This document shows positions 1,812 to 44,989 of a DNA stretch of 50,049 nucleotides, piece by piece. Source of the DNA: a virus; IMG/VR virus record IMGVR_UViG_3300036859_001054, positions 1-50,049 of that record, one strand, 5' to 3'. Below the pieces are notes generated by a model, which saw only the letters and a program-made list of their open reading frames with translations, searched no databases and had not been told where the DNA came from. Made by a program: the position numbers and the translations under genes. Every line of letters starts with the position of its first letter. The first letter of the stretch is position 1.

Positions 1812-3338
1812 CTACGCCAGCTTCTTCGCGATCCTCTCCTCGAGGATCTCCTTCACCGTGAAGGGGATGATCGACTTGTGGCTTCGGCGGAAGAACCCGT
1901 CGATCTCGCGCAGCGCGTCCTCGGTGTAGTCGAACGAGACGAAGTACCCCTTCTTCCGGTTCTCCCGCATCATGACCGCTTCGAAGGAGTCGATGTCCGG
2001 CCGCCCCGCCTTGTCCCGTTGTTTGACCTGGATCGGATACCAGTCGTCCATGAAGTCGAACTCGCCCTTCTTGGCGCCGCGTTCCTCGACAATCGTCGAG
2101 ACGGGGAAGATCCGGCCGTCGATCCCCATGTCCCCGACCTTGGCCTTGTTCCCCACCCCGCCCAGGGCGATGACCGCCCAGTTCTCGAACTCGAACGGCG
2201 GGATCGCGCGCAGCTTGTCCTCGGTCCAGGGGAGGTCGCGCACGATGAAGCCGCGCCCCGCCTTCCAGAGCGCCTCGTCCTCCCGCATGCCGCAGATGTC
2301 GCGGAGGCGCTTCGCCATGACCCGGCACGCCGTCGGCGAGATGTCGATCCCGATCCATTGGCGGTTCAGCTTTTGGGCGGCGACGAGCGCGGTCCCGCAA
2401 CCGCAGAAGGCGTCGAGGACGATGTCTCCGCGGTTGCTGCTGGCCTCGACGATTCTCTCGAGGAGCGCGAGCGGCTTCTGAGTCGGATAGCCGAGACGCT
2501 CCGCACTCCCCGAGATTACAGGTTGGATATCCTCCCAAAACGTTTGGAGAGGAACGCCCGGCATTTCATCGATGTAATGCTTCAGCATCGGCATTCCGGT
2601 CGTGCGGTAGTAGATCTGTCCGGCGTCGTGGAACGCCTGCATCTTTTCCTTGGAGTAGGCCCAGTACCGCCCCCGGTAAGGCAGCACCTTTCGACCATCG
2701 GGAGTGGTCCATTCGTAGGAGGTGTCGCCACCCGGCTTGTTCGCCGTCATGTCCGAGACCCTGAATCGACGCCCCGACTCGTCCTTGTATCGGTAATTCT
2801 GCTCGAGATACTCCTCGCTGTAGGCGGTGTGAATCCGATTCCAGGTCCATTCGTCGCCGCGGGCGTAGAAGAAGATCGTGTCGTGGTTCGCCCCGTATCG
2901 CTGGGGATCGTTGTGAGCCTTGGTGCGGCGCCAGACGATCTCGTTCTGGAACTGGTTCTCCCCGAAGATCTGGTCGAGCATCACCTTGACGTAGTGGCTC
3001 GCATGCCAGTCGCAGTGATAGTAAAAGCTGCCCGTCTTCTTCAGGACGCGCGCGATCTCCACGCAGCGGGGCCGCATGAACTCGATGTAGGCTTGGGTCG
3101 ACGCGTGTCGGTCTTCGAATCGCCGCTTCTCCTGGGTCTCCCCCCAGAAGGTCTCATAATTGCGGTTGGAGTTGAACGGCGGGTCAATGTAAGCCAGGTC
3201 GATGCACGCGTCGGGGAGCTTCTTCAGCTGGTCCAGGCAGTCGCCGCAGTAGACGACCTGGGTGTCGATCAGGCGCGAGGAGCGGATGGGGGCCTGGTCG
3301 GATTGCGGAGCTTTGCTCCGCTTGGGCTTGGGAGACAC
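1812..3338 (-). CDS. DNA methyltransferase fused to an Mrr-like restriction nuclease domain
   Basis: Amino-methyltransferase of the beta class: motif IV DPPF (residues 52-55) precedes the SAM-binding motif I (VLDAFCGCGTAL, about 307-318), with TQKPL at 286-290. The intervening 60-280 region would hold the target recognition part. After about residue 375 a separate domain carries the Mrr pattern: ENWAVIALGG, then GIDG (Asp407) and a QVK strand (Gln437, Lys439). These are the D...QxK residues of the PD-(D/E)xK fold. This suggests modification and cleavage in one 508-aa chain. The GTG start has no clear Shine-Dalgarno sequence. The gene follows a ribbon-helix-helix-like gene on the same strand, which might regulate it. 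Methylation is well supported; nuclease activity is inferred from two short motifs. Confidence 0.88.
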   Translation of the reverse strand: MSPKPKRSKAPQSDQAPIRSSRLIDTQVVYCGDCLDQLKKLPDACIDLAYIDPPFNSNRNYETFWGETQEKRRFEDRHASTQAYIEFMRPRCVEIARVLKKTGSFYYHCDWHASHYVKVMLDQIFGENQFQNEIVWRRTKAHNDPQRYGANHDTIFFYARGDEWTWNRIHTAYSEEYLEQNYRYKDESGRRFRVSDMTANKPGGDTSYEWTTPDGRKVLPYRGRYWAYSKEKMQAFHDAGQIYYRTTGMPMLKHYIDEMPGVPLQTFWEDIQPVISGSAERLGYPTQKPLALLERIVEASSNRGDIVLDAFCGCGTALVAAQKLNRQWIGIDISPTACRVMAKRLRDICGMREDEALWKAGRGFIVRDLPWTEDKLRAIPPFEFENWAVIALGGVGNKAKVGDMGIDGRIFPVSTIVEERGAKKGEFDFMDDWYPIQVKQRDKAGRPDIDSFEAVMMRENRKKGYFVSFDYTEDALREIDGFFRRSHKSIIPFTVKEILEERIAKKLA

Positions 3339-33257: not shown

Positions 33258-34508
33258 TCATTCGATCGAGATCCCCGGTCGCGTCGCGTTTGTCGCCTTC
33301 TTCGCACTGAAGTTCTGCCAGCGCTTCACGGCGACGTCGACGAACGCCGGCGAGATCTCCATCGCGTAGACGCGGCGCCCCTCGCGCTCGCCGGCGATGA
33401 TCTGACTGCCCGAGCCCGAGAAGGGCTCGTAGGCGATGCCGCCCGGGCTCGTGTGGTTCCGAATGGGAATCGCCGAGATCTCGACGGGCTTCTGCGTCGG
33501 ATGCAGGCCTTCCTCCATCCCCTTCTGGTCGATCGCCCAGATCGTCGTGAGGTTGGACTGCGGGCGCTGCGCGGGTAGCTTGCCCTCGAGCCACCCGTAG
33601 AAGCACGGCTCGTGCTGCCACATGTAGTGCGAGTGGGTGAGGATCGCCCGAGCCTTCGCCCAGATGATCTGCTGGTGGACGAAGAGGCCGGCGCGCTTCC
33701 AAGCTTCCTCGACGAGGATCTGCCGGCGCGACGCGTGCCACTGGTAGACCGCGGGGTTCTCGACGAGCGCGTGCTTGAGCGCGACGTCGATGAACTGGAA
33801 GAAGAAGTCCGTCGAGGCCTGGGGATCCTTGTACTCGTCCCAGTGCTTGTCCTTCACCTCGGGGCGGTTCGACCAGCTCTGCGGGTGATTGCCGCCCGAG
33901 TAGTCGACCAGGTAGGGCGGATCCGTGGCCATGAGCGCCGCGCGGTCGGACCCCATGAGACGCTGGACGTCCTCGGGCTTCGTCGAGTCGCCGCACAAGA
34001 GCCGGTGTGCGCCCAGCTGCCAGAGATCGCCGGGCTGGGTGATCGCCTCCTCGATGGGCTCGACGATCTCGTCCTCGTCGCCCGGGCCGCAGGCCAGCGG
34101 GTCCGCGGCGAGCAGCTCCTCGAGCGTCGCCTCCTCGAGGCCGGTCACCGTGAGGTCGAGCTCCCGCTCCTGCAGCTCCTGGACCATCTGCGCCAGGAGC
34201 CGCTCGTCCCAGTCCGACAGCTCGCCCAGCTGGTTGTCCGCGATCGTGTAGAGCGCGGCCTGGTCGTCGGACACGTCGGCGACCACGACGGGGATCTCCG
34301 TCACGCCCTTCTTCTTGAGCGCCTCGAGGCGGCCGTGGCCGGCCAGGATCCGGTACGTGCCCTTCTGCACGATGATCGGGGCGAGGTATCCGAAGCTCTC
34401 GATCGAGCGGGCGATCGCGTCGACCGCGTGGTTCTTCCTCGGGTTCTTGTCCCAGGGCCGGAGCTGGCCGATGGGGACGTTCTCGAGCGCGGGCATGGGG
34501 ATCTTCAT
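33258..34508 (-). CDS. ParB-type N domain fused to a DNA methyltransferase
   Basis: The start at MKIPMPALENVPIGQLRPWD is preceded by GGAGG about 9-11 nt upstream; the extra N-terminal residues in the open frame overlap the preceding gene. Residues 1-95 have the ParB/Sulfiredoxin-type fold (QLRPWDKNPRKNHAVDAIAR, TYRILAGHGRLEALKK, DDQAALYTIADNQLGELS). Residues 185-400 are an amino-methyltransferase: GDLWQLGAHRLLCGDST, DPPY (about 217), THSHYMWQHEPCFYGW, TQKPVE and YEPFSGSGSQIIAG (motif I). Such fusions are common in phages and probably modify phage DNA against host restriction or label packaging. The methyltransferase call is strong; the ParB-like domain's role is unknown. Confidence 0.88.
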   Translation of the reverse strand: MKIPMPALENVPIGQLRPWDKNPRKNHAVDAIARSIESFGYLAPIIVQKGTYRILAGHGRLEALKKKGVTEIPVVVADVSDDQAALYTIADNQLGELSDWDERLLAQMVQELQERELDLTVTGLEEATLEELLAADPLACGPGDEDEIVEPIEEAITQPGDLWQLGAHRLLCGDSTKPEDVQRLMGSDRAALMATDPPYLVDYSGGNHPQSWSNRPEVKDKHWDEYKDPQASTDFFFQFIDVALKHALVENPAVYQWHASRRQILVEEAWKRAGLFVHQQIIWAKARAILTHSHYMWQHEPCFYGWLEGKLPAQRPQSNLTTIWAIDQKGMEEGLHPTQKPVEISAIPIRNHTSPGGIAYEPFSGSGSQIIAGEREGRRVYAMEISPAFVDVAVKRWQNFSAKKATNATRPGISIE

Positions 34509-34762
34509 GGCGCCTTCACCTCCTTCACACGCACGACGCACTTCATGGGGATCGAGATGTCCCCCGATCCCTTCACCCGCACGCCTGGGTTCTTCTCGCC
34601 CGACAAGCTGGCCGCCAGCGTGATCGTCTTGCGGTTACGGTCGACCAGCCAGCCCACCGAGCGGCAGAAGAGCGGCTCCCTCGACTGGTCCCTGATGTAC
34701 TCGAGGGAGTTCCAGCCGTTGAACGAGGACGAGTCCATCCACTCGACCAGCACCAGCTTCAT
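34505..34762 (-). CDS. Small conserved phage protein (85 aa)
   Basis: A short phage protein of the style MKLVLVEWMDSSSFNGWNSL ... PLFCRSVGWLVDRNRKTITL ... MKCVVRVKEVKAP. I have seen the pattern (a strand, 'D(S/A)....GW', 'S.GWL..E....V.LA..') often in phage genomes, always without known function. Its ATG (with GGAGG upstream) overlaps the coiled-coil gene's stop, and its stop overlaps the next ATG. It therefore belongs to one coupled run. Its start lies 20 nt from the palindrome at 34782-34797. Confidence 0.65.
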   Translation of the reverse strand: MKLVLVEWMDSSSFNGWNSLEYIRDQSREPLFCRSVGWLVDRNRKTITLAASLSGEKNPGVRVKGSGDISIPMKCVVRVKEVKAP

Positions 34763-36003: not shown

Positions 36004-37196
36004 GTGGCCACCGCCTGCACGCCGGTGCCCTTGCACGCAGGGCACTTGCCCCAGCGCTTCTGGTCCTCGCCTGGAAGAAATTCATCCGCCTCCACGTTGC
36101 CGATCCCCTTGCAGCGCGGACACGGAGGCCCGGTGGGCTTCTTCGATGCGGGCTCAGCCGGCTGGACCGTGCGGCCGTTGCGGAGGGCCTTCATGATGGC
36201 GAAGAAGTCCGATCTCGGATTCGCGCGCGCGGCCGCCCGCAACCACTGGTGGCTCACGCCCTGGCGCCGGAGGTCCTCGAGCGCGGACTGCTTCGCCTCG
36301 GGCCCGGGCATCTTGAAGCGCTGGAAGGCCGCCAGGGTGATGGCGAGCTCCTCGGATTCCAGCTTCTCGCCTGTTCTTGCAGGGGCCTCCGAGGGGGGCG
36401 ACGTCGATCGAGATCCGGATCCTGCGCCGTCGGAGCCCTGCGGATCGGGGGCTTGACCCCCCTTGGGTTCCTGCTCGGTCCCTGAAATGTCCCTGGGCGG
36501 GCGCTCTTCCTCCCTCTTAGGAAGGGTAGGGGAAGGGGAAGGGAAGGGAACGGCGGGACCGTCCCGCTTGTCCCGCGGGACAGCGTGCGTAAGTCCATGG
36601 CCGCCAGTGGAGCTTGCGGGGATTTGCGGTTTTGTTCCGTCCGAAACCCGGTGAAAACCCGGTGAATCCCCGCGTTTTCCCGGCGAATCCCCGGTGGAAG
36701 CCCGGCGTCCACCCGCGGTTGAACCTTCCGGGGCTTTTGAAGGTTCAAGTTCCAGTTGACCCGCCTCGAGGGCCTTTCGGGCCGCCTCTTCGGCCTCCTG
36801 CCGGCGCTTCTCGGCGGCGCGGCGGCGCTGCTCGCGCTTGCGATCGCGCTCGTAGATGCGCTCCGCGATGATGTCGCCCTGGTGCTCGTGCCAGTCGTGG
36901 ACGACGTAGGTCCGTCCGTCCGGATCCATGTCGAGGAAGCCCACCTTGAGGAGCGCATGGACGAACTTCTTCGGGTTGCCGCTCCAGAGCGCCGCGGTGG
37001 CCACCATGTCGGCGGTCCACTTCACCAGGCGCCCCTCGTCGGTGCGCGTCATCGTCCGGCACCAGAGCGCGTTGACGTGCCCGAACGCGGCCGCCAGGGC
37101 GCAGCTCTTCGCGACCTTCTGCTTCGCATAGAGCAGCTCCGCGAGCTTCCGGAACTTCCAGTGGTCCGGCGCCGCCGGGTCGAGCATCACCTTCAT
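36000..37196 (-). CDS. Replication initiator-like protein (phage O/DnaD type) with internal origin and zinc-ribbon C-terminus
   Basis: 398 residues. The first about 120 form a winged-helix replication-organiser domain (PDHWKFRKLAELLYAKQKVA, GHVNALWCRTMTRTDEGRLV, GFLDMDPDGRTYVVHDWHEH). A basic helix follows (ERDRKREQRRRAAEKRRQEA). The middle (about 145-270) is disordered, Pro/Gly/Ser-rich, and its DNA holds phased iterons (36645-36708). Residues 275-335 are helical. The C-terminus has two DnaJ-like motifs, CPRCKGIGN and CPACKGTGV, forming a zinc ribbon. The resemblance to lambda O is in plan: a DNA-binding N-domain, origin iterons within the gene, and a helicase-loading C-part. Role inferred by plan. 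Confidence 0.75.
   Translation of the reverse strand: MKVMLDPAAPDHWKFRKLAELLYAKQKVAKSCALAAAFGHVNALWCRTMTRTDEGRLVKWTADMVATAALWSGNPKKFVHALLKVGFLDMDPDGRTYVVHDWHEHQGDIIAERIYERDRKREQRRRAAEKRRQEAEEAARKALEAGQLELEPSKAPEGSTAGGRRASTGDSPGKRGDSPGFHRVSDGTKPQIPASSTGGHGLTHAVPRDKRDGPAVPFPSPSPTLPKREEERPPRDISGTEQEPKGGQAPDPQGSDGAGSGSRSTSPPSEAPARTGEKLESEELAITLAAFQRFKMPGPEAKQSALEDLRRQGVSHQWLRAAARANPRSDFFAIMKALRNGRTVQPAEPASKKPTGPPCPRCKGIGNVEADEFLPGEDQKRWGKCPACKGTGVQAVAT
36645..36708. other. Candidate replication origin: phased CCCGG iterons in the replication gene
   Basis: The motif CCCG(G/C) begins at 36647, 36658, 36669, 36679, 36690 and 36701, that is every 10-11 bp. The best copies are AACCCGGTGAA at 36645-36655 and 36656-36666, exactly repeated. 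The spacing is one helical turn and not a multiple of three, so the repeats cross reading frames and are not explained by an amino-acid repeat. Confidence 0.6.
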
Positions 37197-38053: not shown

Positions 38054-38239
38054 CTATTGCGGGATCACAGTGACCTTGCCCTTGTCGTCGACCCGGAAGA
38101 GCGCGGACACGCCATGCTCCTCGCGCAGGTGCCTCTGAAGCACGAACTCGATCTGCTCCATGCCCTGCGTCGTCTGGCCCGTCCAGTCGCAGAGGTTGCA
38201 CCAGACCTTGCCCGTCTCGTCGTTGCCGCCGTAGCTCAT
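38054..38239 (-). CDS. Small C2H2-like zinc-finger protein (61 aa)
   Basis: MSYGGNDETGKVWCNLCDWT with a Cys pair 3 residues apart (CNLC) and a matching HLREEH, giving a C-x2-C...H-x4-H finger. A short strand tail GVSALFRVDDKGKVTVIP follows. Its ATG overlaps the stop of the thioredoxin-like gene (ATGA). A single finger of this type is common in small phage proteins that bind DNA or proteins. Specific role unknown. Confidence 0.6.
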   Translation of the reverse strand: MSYGGNDETGKVWCNLCDWTGQTTQGMEQIEFVLQRHLREEHGVSALFRVDDKGKVTVIPQ

Positions 38240-38577
38240 TTCGTGTCCTTCTCAATGGCGCGCTCAAGAAGCCGCTCCATCGTGTCGCGGTCGACGTTGC
38301 CCATGCACCGGCCGAACTCCACGCCGCGGCAGAAGATCACGATGCACGGCAGCTCCAGGGCGCGGTACGCGGCCTGGGGCGTCGGGTTCTCGTCCACGTC
38401 GATGCGGACGAAGATGATCCGATCGTCCCAGTCCTCCGCGATGGCCTGGATCCGGTTGTGGACCACAAGGCAGCTCCACGTCCCCTCGCGGAACTCCACG
38501 AGGACCGGCGACGCGGCCGCCTCGAGCACCTTGTCGAGCATCTGGTCGGTCACCGTGGGTATGTGCATCGCCTTCAT
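38236..38577 (-). CDS. Thioredoxin-fold protein with a degenerate active site
   Basis: 113 residues. The start MKAMHIPTVTDQML overlaps the previous stop (ATGA). It follows the thioredoxin order: MLDKVLEAAASPVLVEFREG, then TWSCLVVHNRIQAIAEDW in place of the CxxC helix, DDRIIFVRIDVDENP, AYRALELPCIVIFCRG with the cis-Pro loop, and a final helix DTMERLLERAIEKD. The usual CxxC reads W-S-C-L-V-V, so only one Cys remains and dithiol exchange is not expected. It may be a binding platform, as thioredoxin is for T7 polymerase, but no polymerase gene is visible here. Fold call is firm; role open. Confidence 0.8.
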   Translation of the reverse strand: MKAMHIPTVTDQMLDKVLEAAASPVLVEFREGTWSCLVVHNRIQAIAEDWDDRIIFVRIDVDENPTPQAAYRALELPCIVIFCRGVEFGRCMGNVDRDTMERLLERAIEKDTK

Positions 38578-38759
38578 CGGAACTCGTTGGCTTTCGGGCA
38601 ATCGGCGAAGTGGTTCACGCCCTCCTCGGTGTAGGGTGCGCGCTTGCCGTTCTTCGTGATGAGCCACCAGATCTTCTTCCCGCAGCCGCGGCACTGGCCC
38701 TCCTGCCCGACGGCTTTCAGCAGGTCCTTGATCCGCTCCTCGGGGGGTTTCAGGGGCAT
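38574..38759 (-). CDS. Small zinc-binding protein (61 aa)
   Basis: Start at MPLKPPEERIKDLLKAVGQE. CRGCGKKIWWLITKNGKRAP is followed by VNHFADCPKANEFR. The C-x2-C and the later H...C make one zinc site, and the 'C..C......W..T..GK..P......HF..CP' pattern is common in phage genomes. It is coupled to both neighbours (ATGA and TGATG overlaps). Function unknown. Confidence 0.65.
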   Translation of the reverse strand: MPLKPPEERIKDLLKAVGQEGQCRGCGKKIWWLITKNGKRAPYTEEGVNHFADCPKANEFR

Positions 38760-39256
38760 CACTTCCACCTTTCCAGCTTGGTCTTCGAATGGACGTAGAG
38801 CGGGTGGCGTGGCGAGCCATCCTTCGTCTTGCCGAGGCACCACAGCGGCTTGTTGGCGATGGCCGGGTAGCACTGGAGTTGCCCGACGAGAGCATCAGCC
38901 CACTTGCGCATGCAGCCGTCGAGCACTCCCCACGCGGCGATCACGATCTGCGACTCCGCAATCGCGCCGACGACGTATTTCTCACCCGCCTCGGGGAACA
39001 TCAGGTCGTGATCGTGATGGGGCAGCTTGCGCGGGTCGGTCGAGATGAACGGAGAGATGTTGACGAGGATCATCCGGCCGTAACCGAACGACTCGGTGAA
39101 GCTGATGATGCGCGTGCAGGTCGGGTCGTCGTAGTCCTTGCCGGCGACCGATGGATTGGCCCCGATCCAGCACGCCGTCCCCTTCTCGGGAGCCCATGAG
39201 CGGGACAGTCGCCACCGATGGACATGGCCCTGGCTGAAGACAGCGTCGCGGATCAT
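38759..39256 (-). CDS. DUF1643 family protein (165 aa)
   Basis: MIRDAVFSQGHVHRWRLSRS, then WIGANPSVAGKDYDDPTCTR, FTESFGYGRMILVNISPFIS, then DPRKLPHHDHDL. The pattern 'Y R...L.R.W', 'NPS.A....DPT..R....A...GYG...V.N...' is that of DUF1643. Related phage and bacterial proteins are uncharacterised; they are sometimes found with nucleoside or DNA-modifying genes. C-terminal LYVHSKTKLERWK closes it. The ATG overlaps the upstream stop (ATGA). Family match is strong by eye. Confidence 0.78.
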   Translation of the reverse strand: MIRDAVFSQGHVHRWRLSRSWAPEKGTACWIGANPSVAGKDYDDPTCTRIISFTESFGYGRMILVNISPFISTDPRKLPHHDHDLMFPEAGEKYVVGAIAESQIVIAAWGVLDGCMRKWADALVGQLQCYPAIANKPLWCLGKTKDGSPRHPLYVHSKTKLERWK

Positions 39257-41199: not shown

Positions 41200-42951
41200 T
41201 TACTTCTTGGTCTTCTTCGCCAGCTTGGCCTTGAGCTTGTCGGCCTTCGTGTAGTCCGCGTCGGTGGCGCACTTCGAGCAGATCCCGCAGTTGGTCGCGC
41301 GATCGAGGAGGATCCAACTGCACCCGCCGGGGCAGGCGTTCAGCTCGGTGCATTTGCAGCGGCCGCACGTCGGTTCGGGGAAGGCCTTGCCGGCGTCGGC
41401 GGCCTCCCAAGCGGCCTTCAGCTGCTTCTTGATCTTGTCGACGGGGACCTTCCATCGCTTGCACGCGTCGAGGACCAGCTTCTCGTCGGGCGAGTCGTAG
41501 TCGGCCAGGAGCGTGCACCGGAGGTACCGGATGAGGTCCTTCTCCTTCAGCTTGAGGATGTGCTTGTCGTGCTGGCCGTAGCCCTCGGCCCACGGGAAGA
41601 TCCGCGCCAGATCCTGGGGCTGATCTCCGCGCGACGCGTAGATGGCCAGCTGCTGGAGGTCCTCGAGTTCGAGCTTGGGCGGGCCGGCGTCGACGGCCGC
41701 GATGTAGAGCGCGGTGAGGAGCTCACCATCCCGCTTCTGCTTGAGCGCCGCAGCCTCGGCGGTCTTCTTCTCCTTCTCGATCTGCGCCTGGGTCTTGGGC
41801 TTGGCCGGCGAGGATCCGCTGTAGTCGCGATAGGTCGGCTTGGGATTGTGGACGCTGCAGGACGCCGCGGTGCAGATCTCGATGATCTTCCCGCGGCTCG
41901 CGCCCTCGAACATGATCCCCAGGCCCGCGTTCCGGCACTTCTTCTTCCCGATTCGATGCCATTCGCCCAGTCGCTTCACCCCGGCGCGGCCCTCGACCGG
42001 CGCCAGCCGCCAGTTGTACTGCTCCTCGGAGATCACGACGACCTTGTCGTCCTGGGCCTTCAGCTCCTTGATCTTCAGGTCGATCCAGGCGTTGAACTTG
42101 TCCTTGAAGCAGGCGCGGTCCGTGCAGACCGTGTCCTTCTGGATCTCGGGGAAAAGGCCGGGGCTGTTGCCGGTCCGTTTCGGGCAGGTCGCGCAAGGGC
42201 CGGCCTTCGGGACGAGGTCGGCGTCCGCCATGTCCCAGGGCATCTTCGCGAGGTCGGTGTGGATCTCGCCCTCGATCCAGTTCGACAGATCCCGGACGGT
42301 GATGAGCGTCTTGGCGGCCGACTTCTTGTGGCCCCAGTCCTCGGGATCTCCGTCGGCGACGTCGACCTCGTGGACGCAGCGGCCGAGCGCGGCCTTCTGA
42401 TCGTCGGGGACCAGGCGCGCGATCAGGACGGCGTGGCCGGCCGTGATCCGATCCTCCAGAAACGCCTTCTTCGCCGGATCGATCAACTCCGCGAGCTTGA
42501 GGCGCTGGTAGATGTACGAGCTGGACTTCCCGACCTTCGCCGCCAGCCCGTCGACGTCGTACCTGCCCGTCGTGAGGAGCGACTGGTAGCCCTCGCCTTC
42601 CTCGAGCGGGTGCACGTCCTGGCGCTGCAGGTTCTCAATCACCTGCGCTTCAAGCGCCTGGTCGTCGCTCAGCTCCCGCACCAGGACCGGGATCTCGGAG
42701 AGCCCCGCCTTCTTCGCGGCGCGGTACCGGCGCGCCCCGGCGACGATCTCGAAGTGGCCGTCGACCGGCCGCACGAGCGGCGGGACGATGATGCCCTTCT
42801 CCTTCACGCTCTTCGCCAGGTCCTCGAGGGCCTGCGCGTTGAACGTCTTCCGCGGATTCGTCTTCGACTCCCGAATCTTCTCGAGCGGGAGGATCTTGTA
42901 CGCCTGGTCCTTCGCCTCGAGGATGCCCGTGTCTGCCGTGCCCGTCGTCAT
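41200..42951 (-). CDS. Large ParB/Spo0J-like protein with Cys-rich C-terminus
   Basis: 583 residues. The ParB N-domain shows ILPLEKIRESKTNPRKTFNA, HFEIVAGARRYRAAKKAGLS and VIENLQRQDVHPLEEGEGYQ (residues 106-120). A helix-turn-helix follows at 131-156 (VDGLAAKVGKSSSYIYQRLK). A Cys cluster reads CATCPKRTG...CTDRACFKDKF, as in phage and plasmid ParB relatives. The tail has CGRCKCTELNACPGGCSWIL and CGICSKC, a further zinc site. It may bind the 16-bp palindrome found at 4664 and 34782. The ATG overlaps the HerA-like gene (ATGA). The ParB assignment is strong; the partition role is inferred. Confidence 0.85.
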   Translation of the reverse strand: MTTGTADTGILEAKDQAYKILPLEKIRESKTNPRKTFNAQALEDLAKSVKEKGIIVPPLVRPVDGHFEIVAGARRYRAAKKAGLSEIPVLVRELSDDQALEAQVIENLQRQDVHPLEEGEGYQSLLTTGRYDVDGLAAKVGKSSSYIYQRLKLAELIDPAKKAFLEDRITAGHAVLIARLVPDDQKAALGRCVHEVDVADGDPEDWGHKKSAAKTLITVRDLSNWIEGEIHTDLAKMPWDMADADLVPKAGPCATCPKRTGNSPGLFPEIQKDTVCTDRACFKDKFNAWIDLKIKELKAQDDKVVVISEEQYNWRLAPVEGRAGVKRLGEWHRIGKKKCRNAGLGIMFEGASRGKIIEICTAASCSVHNPKPTYRDYSGSSPAKPKTQAQIEKEKKTAEAAALKQKRDGELLTALYIAAVDAGPPKLELEDLQQLAIYASRGDQPQDLARIFPWAEGYGQHDKHILKLKEKDLIRYLRCTLLADYDSPDEKLVLDACKRWKVPVDKIKKQLKAAWEAADAGKAFPEPTCGRCKCTELNACPGGCSWILLDRATNCGICSKCATDADYTKADKLKAKLAKKTKK

Positions 42952-44726
42952 CGCCCGCCTCCTTGTCCGAAAATCCAGTCCGCGCAACGCACGCGGCCCT
43001 TGCCTGAGTAAGTCGCCATATCCGCCGTCTTGATGGACCCCACGTTCTTCTCGAACCCGCTCGACGCGACGGTCGTGTCGCCCAGGGGCGCGAGATCCTC
43101 TCGGCTCAGGTCCTCGGGGTAGGCTTTCGCCAGCGCCTGGACCAGCTTCGCCATCGGCACCGTGACGGCCGCGACGCACTTCTCGAGGATCTCCGGCGTG
43201 TCGAGCGCGGCGACGTCGCCGGCGAGGGCGCGGCCCTCGTCGGTGAGCCGGTAGCAGCTGGGCTCTCCGTACTCGAGGAGGCCCCGGACCCGGAGCGTCC
43301 CGACGTTCTTCTCGTAGCCGCTCGAGGCGTGGGTCGTGTCCGCGATCGGGGCGACCCACGTGCGGCGCAGCTGCGTGAAGCCGAGGCCTTCGAGCCGCTT
43401 CGCGGCCTGGAGGATCTTCAGTTGCGGCCGCGTGAGCTCGGAGCCGTTGCCCTCGTGGGTTGCCTCCGACGGCGCCGGCGGAACGATCCGCGGCCGCGGC
43501 GCGGGGATCGGGACGGGGCGGCGCTCGAGGACGTTGACGGTGGGGGTCTCGGTCCGCTTCGCGAGGGCCGTGGCGATCGACTTCGCGCTCTCCTTCGTGT
43601 GGAGCGCCGCGACACCCAGCGCGTCGGCCGCGGTGGTGAGGCGCACGACGGTCCGCTCGAGTGTGGCGCGGTCCTTCTGCGACAGGACCGGGACCTCGAC
43701 GATCTTCGGTTTTACGGGCTTGAGAAAGGCGGGCGTCGGGACGAGCGTGGGCACGGCCTTCGAGCGCTTCAGCTGGAGCTCGAGCTCGTGGATCCGCTGC
43801 AGGAGGAGCTTGGGGTCCTCGCGCTTGGCCTTCTCGACCGTCTCCGACATCAGGGCACGCAGTCGATCGAGGTCGACCGGCGCCAGGCGCTTGGGCTCGC
43901 GGAGGACCTCGCCGGGCTTCGGGGTCTTGCCGCTGTCGTAGGTCTCCCGCTCCCGGATCTTCACCTGGCGGAAGATTCCCTGCTGCGGCCAGCAGACCCA
44001 CACGGTGCCGCGCTTGAGGGACGGCAGGGACTGGAGCAGCTCCTGCAGCTGGTCCACCGTGATGTCCTTGCCCTCGGCCCAGTCGACGATCGCCTTCTTG
44101 TCGCGCTTGTCGGTGGTCTGCCCCGCGATCAGGATCCCCGCTTGGGAGAGTACGTTCTTGCTCACCGCGGCCGAGCGCTGGGAAAGGATCGTCCCGCCGA
44201 TCCCGTTGATGCGGCCGCGCTTGAAGATCCGCTCGACGGCGCCGAGGCAGCGGCGCTCTTCCGGCATGGGGTTCTGCGGGGCGAACTGGTCGCCCTCGTC
44301 GAGGAAGAGGTGGATCGGGGTCCGGTTCTTCCGGTAGAGCCGCGTCGTGAAGGCCTCGACGAACCGCGTCTCCTCCGCGTTCGACTCGAAGCTCTTGAGG
44401 CTCAGGACCGCGGAGATCCCCGTATCCACGATCGTGTCGGCCATGAGCTCCCCGCTGGTGGGGCTGAGCGGCACGTCGCCGTGGGGCCCGCCGAAGATGT
44501 AGACCTCGAAGCCGGCGCGCAGGCCGTCGGCCGACGATCGCAGCCCCCACCAGGCGTCCGTCAGGTCGATCACGCAGACCTGCTGCTTGTGCTTGAGCAG
44601 CTCCTCCGCGATGACGGATCCGGTGTAGCTCTTCCCCATCCCCGTCCGCGCGAGCGTGGCAATCTTCTCGCACAGGATGTCGAGCGACAAATTGAAGTCT
44701 TCGGAGATCCTCAGCTTCGCCGTCAT
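42948..44726 (-). CDS. HerA/FtsK-like P-loop ATPase with tandem C-terminal winged helices
   Basis: 592 residues. Walker A RTGMGKSY (27-34) and Walker B PIHLFLDEGD (137-146). The arrangement KHKQQVCVIDLTDAWWGLRS, GGTILSQRSAAVSKNVLSQA and GILIAGQTTDKRDKKAIVDW matches DNA-translocating HerA/VirB4-type ATPases. After a linker (265-430) come two similar winged helices: 432-503 (ILQAAKRLEGLGF...HASSGYEKNVGTLRVRGLL) and 523-583 (VQALAKAYPEDLS...VASSGFEKNVGSIK). Upstream it overlaps the wHTH gene and downstream the ParB gene (ATGA both), so the three are made together. It is probably a DNA motor acting with ParB; specific role unknown. Confidence 0.82.
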   Translation of the reverse strand: MTAKLRISEDFNLSLDILCEKIATLARTGMGKSYTGSVIAEELLKHKQQVCVIDLTDAWWGLRSSADGLRAGFEVYIFGGPHGDVPLSPTSGELMADTIVDTGISAVLSLKSFESNAEETRFVEAFTTRLYRKNRTPIHLFLDEGDQFAPQNPMPEERRCLGAVERIFKRGRINGIGGTILSQRSAAVSKNVLSQAGILIAGQTTDKRDKKAIVDWAEGKDITVDQLQELLQSLPSLKRGTVWVCWPQQGIFRQVKIRERETYDSGKTPKPGEVLREPKRLAPVDLDRLRALMSETVEKAKREDPKLLLQRIHELELQLKRSKAVPTLVPTPAFLKPVKPKIVEVPVLSQKDRATLERTVVRLTTAADALGVAALHTKESAKSIATALAKRTETPTVNVLERRPVPIPAPRPRIVPPAPSEATHEGNGSELTRPQLKILQAAKRLEGLGFTQLRRTWVAPIADTTHASSGYEKNVGTLRVRGLLEYGEPSCYRLTDEGRALAGDVAALDTPEILEKCVAAVTVPMAKLVQALAKAYPEDLSREDLAPLGDTTVASSGFEKNVGSIKTADMATYSGKGRVRCADWIFGQGGGR

Positions 44727-44989
44727 GCGGTCCTCCCGAAGAGCTCGCCCTGGGCCTTCTCGACGAGCGTGTAGCGATAGATCGCGGCGCCGCGGTCGGT
44801 CCGCTGCTCGAAGCGGCACTCGATGTGGAAGCCGTTGGCTCGCAGCTCGGCGATGATGGAGTTGACCGCGCAGACCTGGGCCGCCTCGATGATCTCCCGC
44901 GTCGTCGCCCCCTTCGAGCCGCGGGAGCGGAGGAGCTGGAGCACCCGCTTCAGGCGCTCGCTCTTCTCGACCTTCGCCGCGTGCATCAC
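44723..44989 (-). CDS. Small winged-helix protein (88 aa), HTH_39-like
   Basis: 88 residues, MMHAAKVEKSERLKRVLQLL, RSRGSKGATTREIIEAAQVC, AVNSIIAELRANGFHIECRF, EQRTDRGAAIYRYTLVEKAQ. The plan (helix, 'TT.EI', recognition helix '..I.ELR..G..I', wing) matches phage helix-turn-helix proteins of the HTH_39 type. The ATG at 44989 is the start of the transcript segment after a 158-nt gap. The stop overlaps the HerA-like gene start. It is a natural candidate for autoregulation of the operon or DNA site recognition. Confidence 0.75.
   Translation of the reverse strand: MMHAAKVEKSERLKRVLQLLRSRGSKGATTREIIEAAQVCAVNSIIAELRANGFHIECRFEQRTDRGAAIYRYTLVEKAQGELFGRTA

Follow-up and report, generated by a model that had tools for sequence, protein, structure and literature searches.

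Phased 11-bp repeats inside a phage replication-initiation gene and its relatives: a candidate origin of replication

In-gene origins and the locus examined

Replication origins located inside the gene of their own initiator are already known; they have been established for lambda and for oriL of SPP1, and proposed for oriL of P1. In lambda, the iterons bound by the O protein are found midway along gene O, next to an AT-rich region where the DNA opens (PMC7466680). In SPP1, oriL is located in gene 38; the initiator binds direct repeats within the gene that encodes it, and a DNA unwinding element is also present (PMC6316719). For P1, an in-gene origin was proposed in repL, a gene in which synonymous changes are detrimental to replication (PMC9948254).

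We analyzed a stretch of phage DNA of 50,049 nucleotides (hereinafter referred to as the window). A preliminary description, made from the sequence of the window, had proposed that helically phased repeats within an O-like replication gene form an origin that mirrors that of lambda. The comparison was found to be apt in function and position: the candidate origin lies centrally within the initiator gene, the iterons are followed downstream on the coding strand by a proposed opening region, and the initiator has a predicted DNA-binding N-domain and a linker. The two systems are not homologous, however, since iteron size and spacing differ. The lambda iterons are 18-bp inverted repeats with starts 20, 24, and 23 bp apart, whereas the window has contiguous 11-bp units and lacks 18-bp iterons at the spacing of about 20-24 bp typical of the lambda O family. 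The search for relatives with the window N-domain did not reach lambda O. By description, the SPP1 oriL/gp38 system is similar to the arrangement proposed for the window, with repeats inside the initiator gene that would be bound by the initiator.

Other phages were comparable in the initiator itself. Paenibacillus Harrison, Faecalibacterium Lagaffe, and Roseburia Shimadzu encode the same N-domain family (annotated as "replication initiation protein," phrog_9474-like) and have linker iterons followed by a short tandem tract. They differ from the window in iteron words (e.g., CGACCGCCGGA in clostridial phages) and in the short distance between array and tract (91 nt in the window), and the window protein carries an additional zinc motif at its C-terminus. 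Rep of TP901-1, annotated as an experimentally supported replication protein, also has DNA repeats in its central part, but these have a 15-bp in-frame period and the N-domain is different. The family studied here is distinct from both lambda O (iterons 20-24 bp apart) and TP901-1 Rep. No description of 11-bp phased iterons in the phrog_9474-like family was found in the literature searched, the coverage of which was incomplete. The combination of contiguous 11-bp phasing, a pentameric tract, and conservation across a large initiator family looks like an undescribed variant.

The initiator gene and the repeats in its linker

The gene encodes an N-domain, a disordered linker containing the repeats, and a DnaJ-like zinc motif at the C-terminus (Table 1). 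Residues 34-139 matched the replication initiation protein profile phrog_9474 (E = 1.4e-21) and, more weakly, the N-domain matched the replisome organizer profile phrog_13246 (8e-6). The N-domain contained an [IV]HDWxE[YH] motif and a basic C-terminal helix. Its AlphaFold2 model, built on 67 aligned sequences, had a mean pLDDT of 95.1 and consisted of helices and a beta wing, with a long basic helix after them. Viral structures matched by this model included a primosomal protein (E = 7e-8) and a replisome organiser (E = 5e-6). A fold search of the PDB returned weak generic matches (E above 0.05), several of which were winged-helix proteins, and a sequence search of solved structures gave chance matches only. 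The Pfam profile Phage_rep_org_N (PF09681) did not match the window N-domain and matched 2 of the 67 aligned members (best E 0.00016). The profile match, the winged-helix-like model, and the replisome-organiser and primosomal structure matches bear out the view that this is an O-like replication gene with a winged-helix-like N-domain, and the array falls in the interdomain linker, in agreement with the placement of the repeats in the disordered middle of the protein.

Table 1. Positions in the window of the initiator gene and of the elements in its linker DNA.
Feature	Position	Strand	Basis or remark
Replication-initiation (replisome-organiser-like) gene, 398 aa	36000..37196	-	Profile matches to phrog_9474 and phrog_13246
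N-domain, predicted winged-helix-like DNA-binding domain	36780..37196	-	AlphaFold2 model and viral structure matches
Perfect 10-bp inverted repeat TTGAACCTTC-N10-GAAGGTTCAA	36719..36748	.	Adjoins the array on the side of the N-domain
Seven 11-bp iterons, 10-11-bp phased	36641..36716	.	Proposed initiator-binding array
GTCCCGC/GCGGGAC cluster, two direct and two inverted copies	36553..36581	.	Abuts the tandem tract
Short tandem tract, period ~5	36517..36552	.	TRF; proposed opening/loading tract

On the + strand, CCCG(G/C) words started at 36647, 36658, 36669, 36679, 36690, 36701, and 36712, with spacings of 11, 11, 10, 11, 11, and 11 bp and a total extent of 36647-36716. Six copies had been reported previously; the repeats and their 10-11-bp spacing were confirmed, and a seventh copy had been missed. 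The unit is best taken as about 11 bp, namely YGAAaaCCCGG on the + strand and CCGGGttTTCR on the coding strand, where the core CCGGG is preceded by TTCAC or TTCGC variants. Periods of 11 and 32 bp were also detected in the array by TRF.

The chain of seven CCCG(G/C) words at 10-11 bp was compared with 60 third-order Markov simulations of the 50-kb window, in which the longest chain was three; for any 4-mer, the longest chain in 40 simulations was five at most, as against seven observed. Because the repeat stretch is coding, synonymous-codon shuffles of the gene that kept the peptide (n = 2,000) were also used. None of them reached seven words, and the maximum of six occurred once. Identity at lag 11 within the local 105 nt was 0.54 vs. 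0.26 in local codon shuffles (p = 0.001). Neither composition nor the peptide explains the array. Part of it is repeated in frame, GGGGATTCnCCGGG recurring at 21 bp and giving the peptide GDSPG-KR-GDSPG; the earlier statement that the repeats fall in different reading frames was accordingly true for the array as a whole, but not for every pair.

The tandem tract reads TTCCCTTCCCTTCCCCTTCCCCTACCC on the coding strand and is nearly G-free on that strand. Its period-5 score was 19, above the codon-shuffle maximum of 17, and its AT content was only 37.5%. The gap between array and tract was 91 nt; across 40 loci that have strong arrays, the 5th-95th percentile range was 4-45 nt, so that the short gap of the relatives is not found in the window. 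The GTCCCGC/GCGGGAC cluster includes the palindrome GTCCCGCGGGAC and resembles the family iteron words GTCC-N-GGAC; CGTCC, CGGAC, and GGACA were among the most enriched words in the linkers of relatives. Since 21% of synonymous shuffles clustered equally, the cluster was rejected as an independent significant feature and was kept as a weak lead only. Because a cluster so similar to the family words directly abuts the tract, the window may have proximal and distal candidate initiator sites, the cluster alone not being significant. An inverted repeat such as the 10-bp one beside the array was found in the linker in 4.6% of synonymous shuffles.

A DnaJ-type CxxCxGxG zinc motif was observed at the C-terminus of the initiator (36018-36128; the DnaJ_CXXCXGXG match was below threshold), and was not seen in six relatives for which full-length alignments were made. 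A gene for RuvC was located directly upstream of the initiator gene. The phage also encodes ParB-like, methyltransferase, sigma-70, terminase, portal, capsid, and integrase proteins. Two proteins contained ParB-N domains (33258-34541 and 41200-43041), one of which was fused to an N4/N6 DNA methyltransferase, and a second methyltransferase was encoded at 1815-3338. In the replication neighbourhood, a thioredoxin domain was found in the C-terminal half of the open frame 38236-38895, the start site of which is uncertain. A sigma-70 family factor with regions 2 and 4 was encoded by the phage at 39666-40214. A scan of roughly 20 window proteins did not reveal any helicase or helicase loader. A HerA/DUF87-like ATPase (42948-44819), the gene of which adjoins a ParB gene, is possibly a translocase or a stand-in for a missing helicase.

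The 11-bp phase and the tandem tract in relatives

Relatives were collected by N-domain searches that comprised 80 loci per scan of viral contigs, relatives in named phages, and ten Firmicutes prophages; the prophage homologues were retrieved once repeats were known from the viral sequences. Near-identical linkers were collapsed, giving 76 viral sequences including the window, and about 85 relatives overall. N-domain identity between the window and its relatives was low (about 24-38%), and the iterons themselves could therefore not be aligned. A helicase loader gene is present in annotated relatives, in which the initiator gene lies next to genes for SSB, ERF recombinase, and DnaC-like or gp38-like proteins.

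In the 76 viral sequences, 8-mers repeated within 60 nt covered 30-43% of the linker DNA (scored 30-75 residues after the HDW motif) vs. about 4% in codon shuffles, and were at background level in N-domain DNA. At least two repeat pairs were present in 67 of the 76 loci (5.7 expected), and 286 of 502 pairs were out of frame. Pair distances peaked at 5, 10, 11, 15, 20, 22, 25, 30, and 33, and were separable into two modules. Between the N-domain and the tract, linker autocorrelation was strong at lags of 11 (z = 26), 22 (z = 14), and 33 (z = 11), compared with z = 1.3 at lag 11 in N-domain DNA of the same genes. This 11-bp phase of linker DNA, derived here as a family feature, was shared by the window (p = 0.001, as above), which ranked 8th of 85 loci for 11-bp repetition.

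The phase was specific in both length and location. Strong repetition at lags of 8, 10, 11, 13, and 14 was found in 1, 5, 43, 0, and 0 of 84 loci, respectively, and strong lag-11 repetition occurred in 51% of loci vs. 0.14% of codon shuffles. Of 64 loci, 55 had a significant lag-11 signal in the stretch that separates the N-domain from the tract; downstream of the tract, 5 did. All ten Firmicutes prophage homologues had the 11-bp signal (each p at most 0.011), and the phase recurred among phages of distant hosts. Loss of the phased motif from relatives that kept the peptide had been named as an outcome that would speak against an origin; the opposite was seen, in that peptides and repeat words varied between phages while the 11-bp period was constant.

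The order of elements in relatives was N-domain, 11-bp array, and a strand-biased tandem tract of about 5 bp. A tandem tract with a period of 4-7 (mostly 5) outscored every shuffle in 65 of 86 loci; examples are ACCAACC, TACCCAACCC, AGAGAAGAGAAG, and TAGAGTAGA. Mean |GC skew| was 0.59 in the tracts vs. 0.16 in N-domain DNA, and the tract was more AT-rich than its own gene in 55 of 65 loci. The array abuts the tract, with a median gap of 15 nt. As short tandem repeats beside initiator boxes, these tracts resemble the DnaA-trio tracts of bacterial oriC, and some, such as the last example, are TAG-rich. The window tract is of a TTCCC type, not TAG, and the likeness is one of repeat pattern that does not implicate DnaA.

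In the linkers of loci L044, L055, L066, and L072, REERRGEEKRGEEKRG-type peptides were encoded by AGAGAGGAGA purine tracts; similar purine tracts in other phages, read in other frames, gave quite different peptides. Separately, the exact 20-mer CCCGGTGAAAACCCGGTGAA was found in two contigs only among all viral contigs, apparently from the same phage, and the match was judged to be chance. Its sites (L003:1218-1237 and L004:11900-11919) lay in non-coding DNA next to a tRNA-like sequence, accompanied by several ACCCCGCT repeats and, further on, by TTATCCACA-type repeats. This stretch of an unrelated phage is another candidate replication region.

Interpretation as a probable origin of replication

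The linker-coding stretch of the initiator gene is very probably the replication origin of the phage, with the iterons as putative binding sites of the N-domain and the tract as the predicted site of opening. The iterons lie inside the initiator coding sequence, as in the in-gene origins described above, and the candidate origin proposed earlier gains support from the protein family, the N-domain fold, the linker position, and the 11-bp phase in about 85 relatives. It was not supported by GC skew, which gave no useful signal at 36.6 kb, where the array lacked a clear switch; the cumulative curve peaked weakly near 33-34 kb, and GC skew was dropped as origin evidence. Further points that speak against it are the 91-nt gap, the low AT content of the window tract, the lack of a recognised helicase or loader among the proteins scanned, and the low N-domain identity of the relatives. 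From sequence and predicted structure, we infer that the N-domain would bind the 11-bp iterons as a multimer. Because the iterons are one turn apart, all would face the same side of the helix. The complex would then strain or open the neighbouring strand-biased tract, where a helicase could be loaded via a phage or host loader.

Plasmids can use iteron arrays to control copy number, and the array in the window might instead be an operator to which the initiator binds for autoregulation or titration (handcuffing). Its location within the initiator's own gene would suit such a role, as would the 91 nt between array and tract in the window, where the second, GTCCCGC cluster is closer to the tract. 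We nevertheless consider an operator unlikely, given that the array is inside coding sequence at least 420 nt downstream of the start, which is unusual for an operator, and that in relatives it abuts a separate tandem tract, which fits an origin. Helical phasing is also typical of curved or wrapped DNA, from which it could be argued that the repeats are chiefly a bending or nucleoid-protein (IHF/HU-like) site near an origin and not initiator iterons. This is harder still to accept, as the repeat cores of the family are mostly GC-rich words (e.g., GGACGTCC and GTCACGCG) rather than A-tracts. Moreover, pairs with more than 60% N-domain identity shared 9.4 iteron-region 7-mers vs. 4.2 in downstream control DNA, as would be the case for a cognate initiator; common descent contributes to this sharing, which lends weak support to a match between initiator and word.

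Least probable of all, and already largely refuted, is drift in low-complexity coding sequence, by which slippage in the disordered linker would have produced tandem repeats devoid of a function in DNA. Disordered linkers do tolerate repeats and the window pattern is partly in frame (GDSPG twice), but drift does not account for a period of specifically 11 across unrelated words and peptides, for a majority of out-of-frame pairs, for the confinement of the repeats to the stretch between N-domain and tract, or for their recurrence in phages of distant hosts.

Returning to the origin interpretation, a broader proposal, on which our own judgement is evenly divided, is that these loci form a distinct large class of phage origins. 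The 11-bp iterons, one helical turn apart, would let the initiator polymerise along a single face of the DNA, and would be coupled to a tract of about 5-bp repeats without G or C on one strand, which would be the loading strand. Selection would keep the array and the tract, with the linker peptide as a by-product in whatever frame results, and the iteron word of each phage would be matched to its own N-domain.

Most phage origins are unmapped. A rule applied to sequence alone, namely an 11-bp period in the linker of an initiator gene and, after it, a short tandem tract, would yield origins that could be tested in many uncultured phages and prophages, together with a natural variety of paired initiator domains and DNA words for research on how initiators read origins. 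It also accounts for odd repetitive peptides in the initiators of this family, such as REEKREEK, NPTVPNPT, and VDKTREDK.
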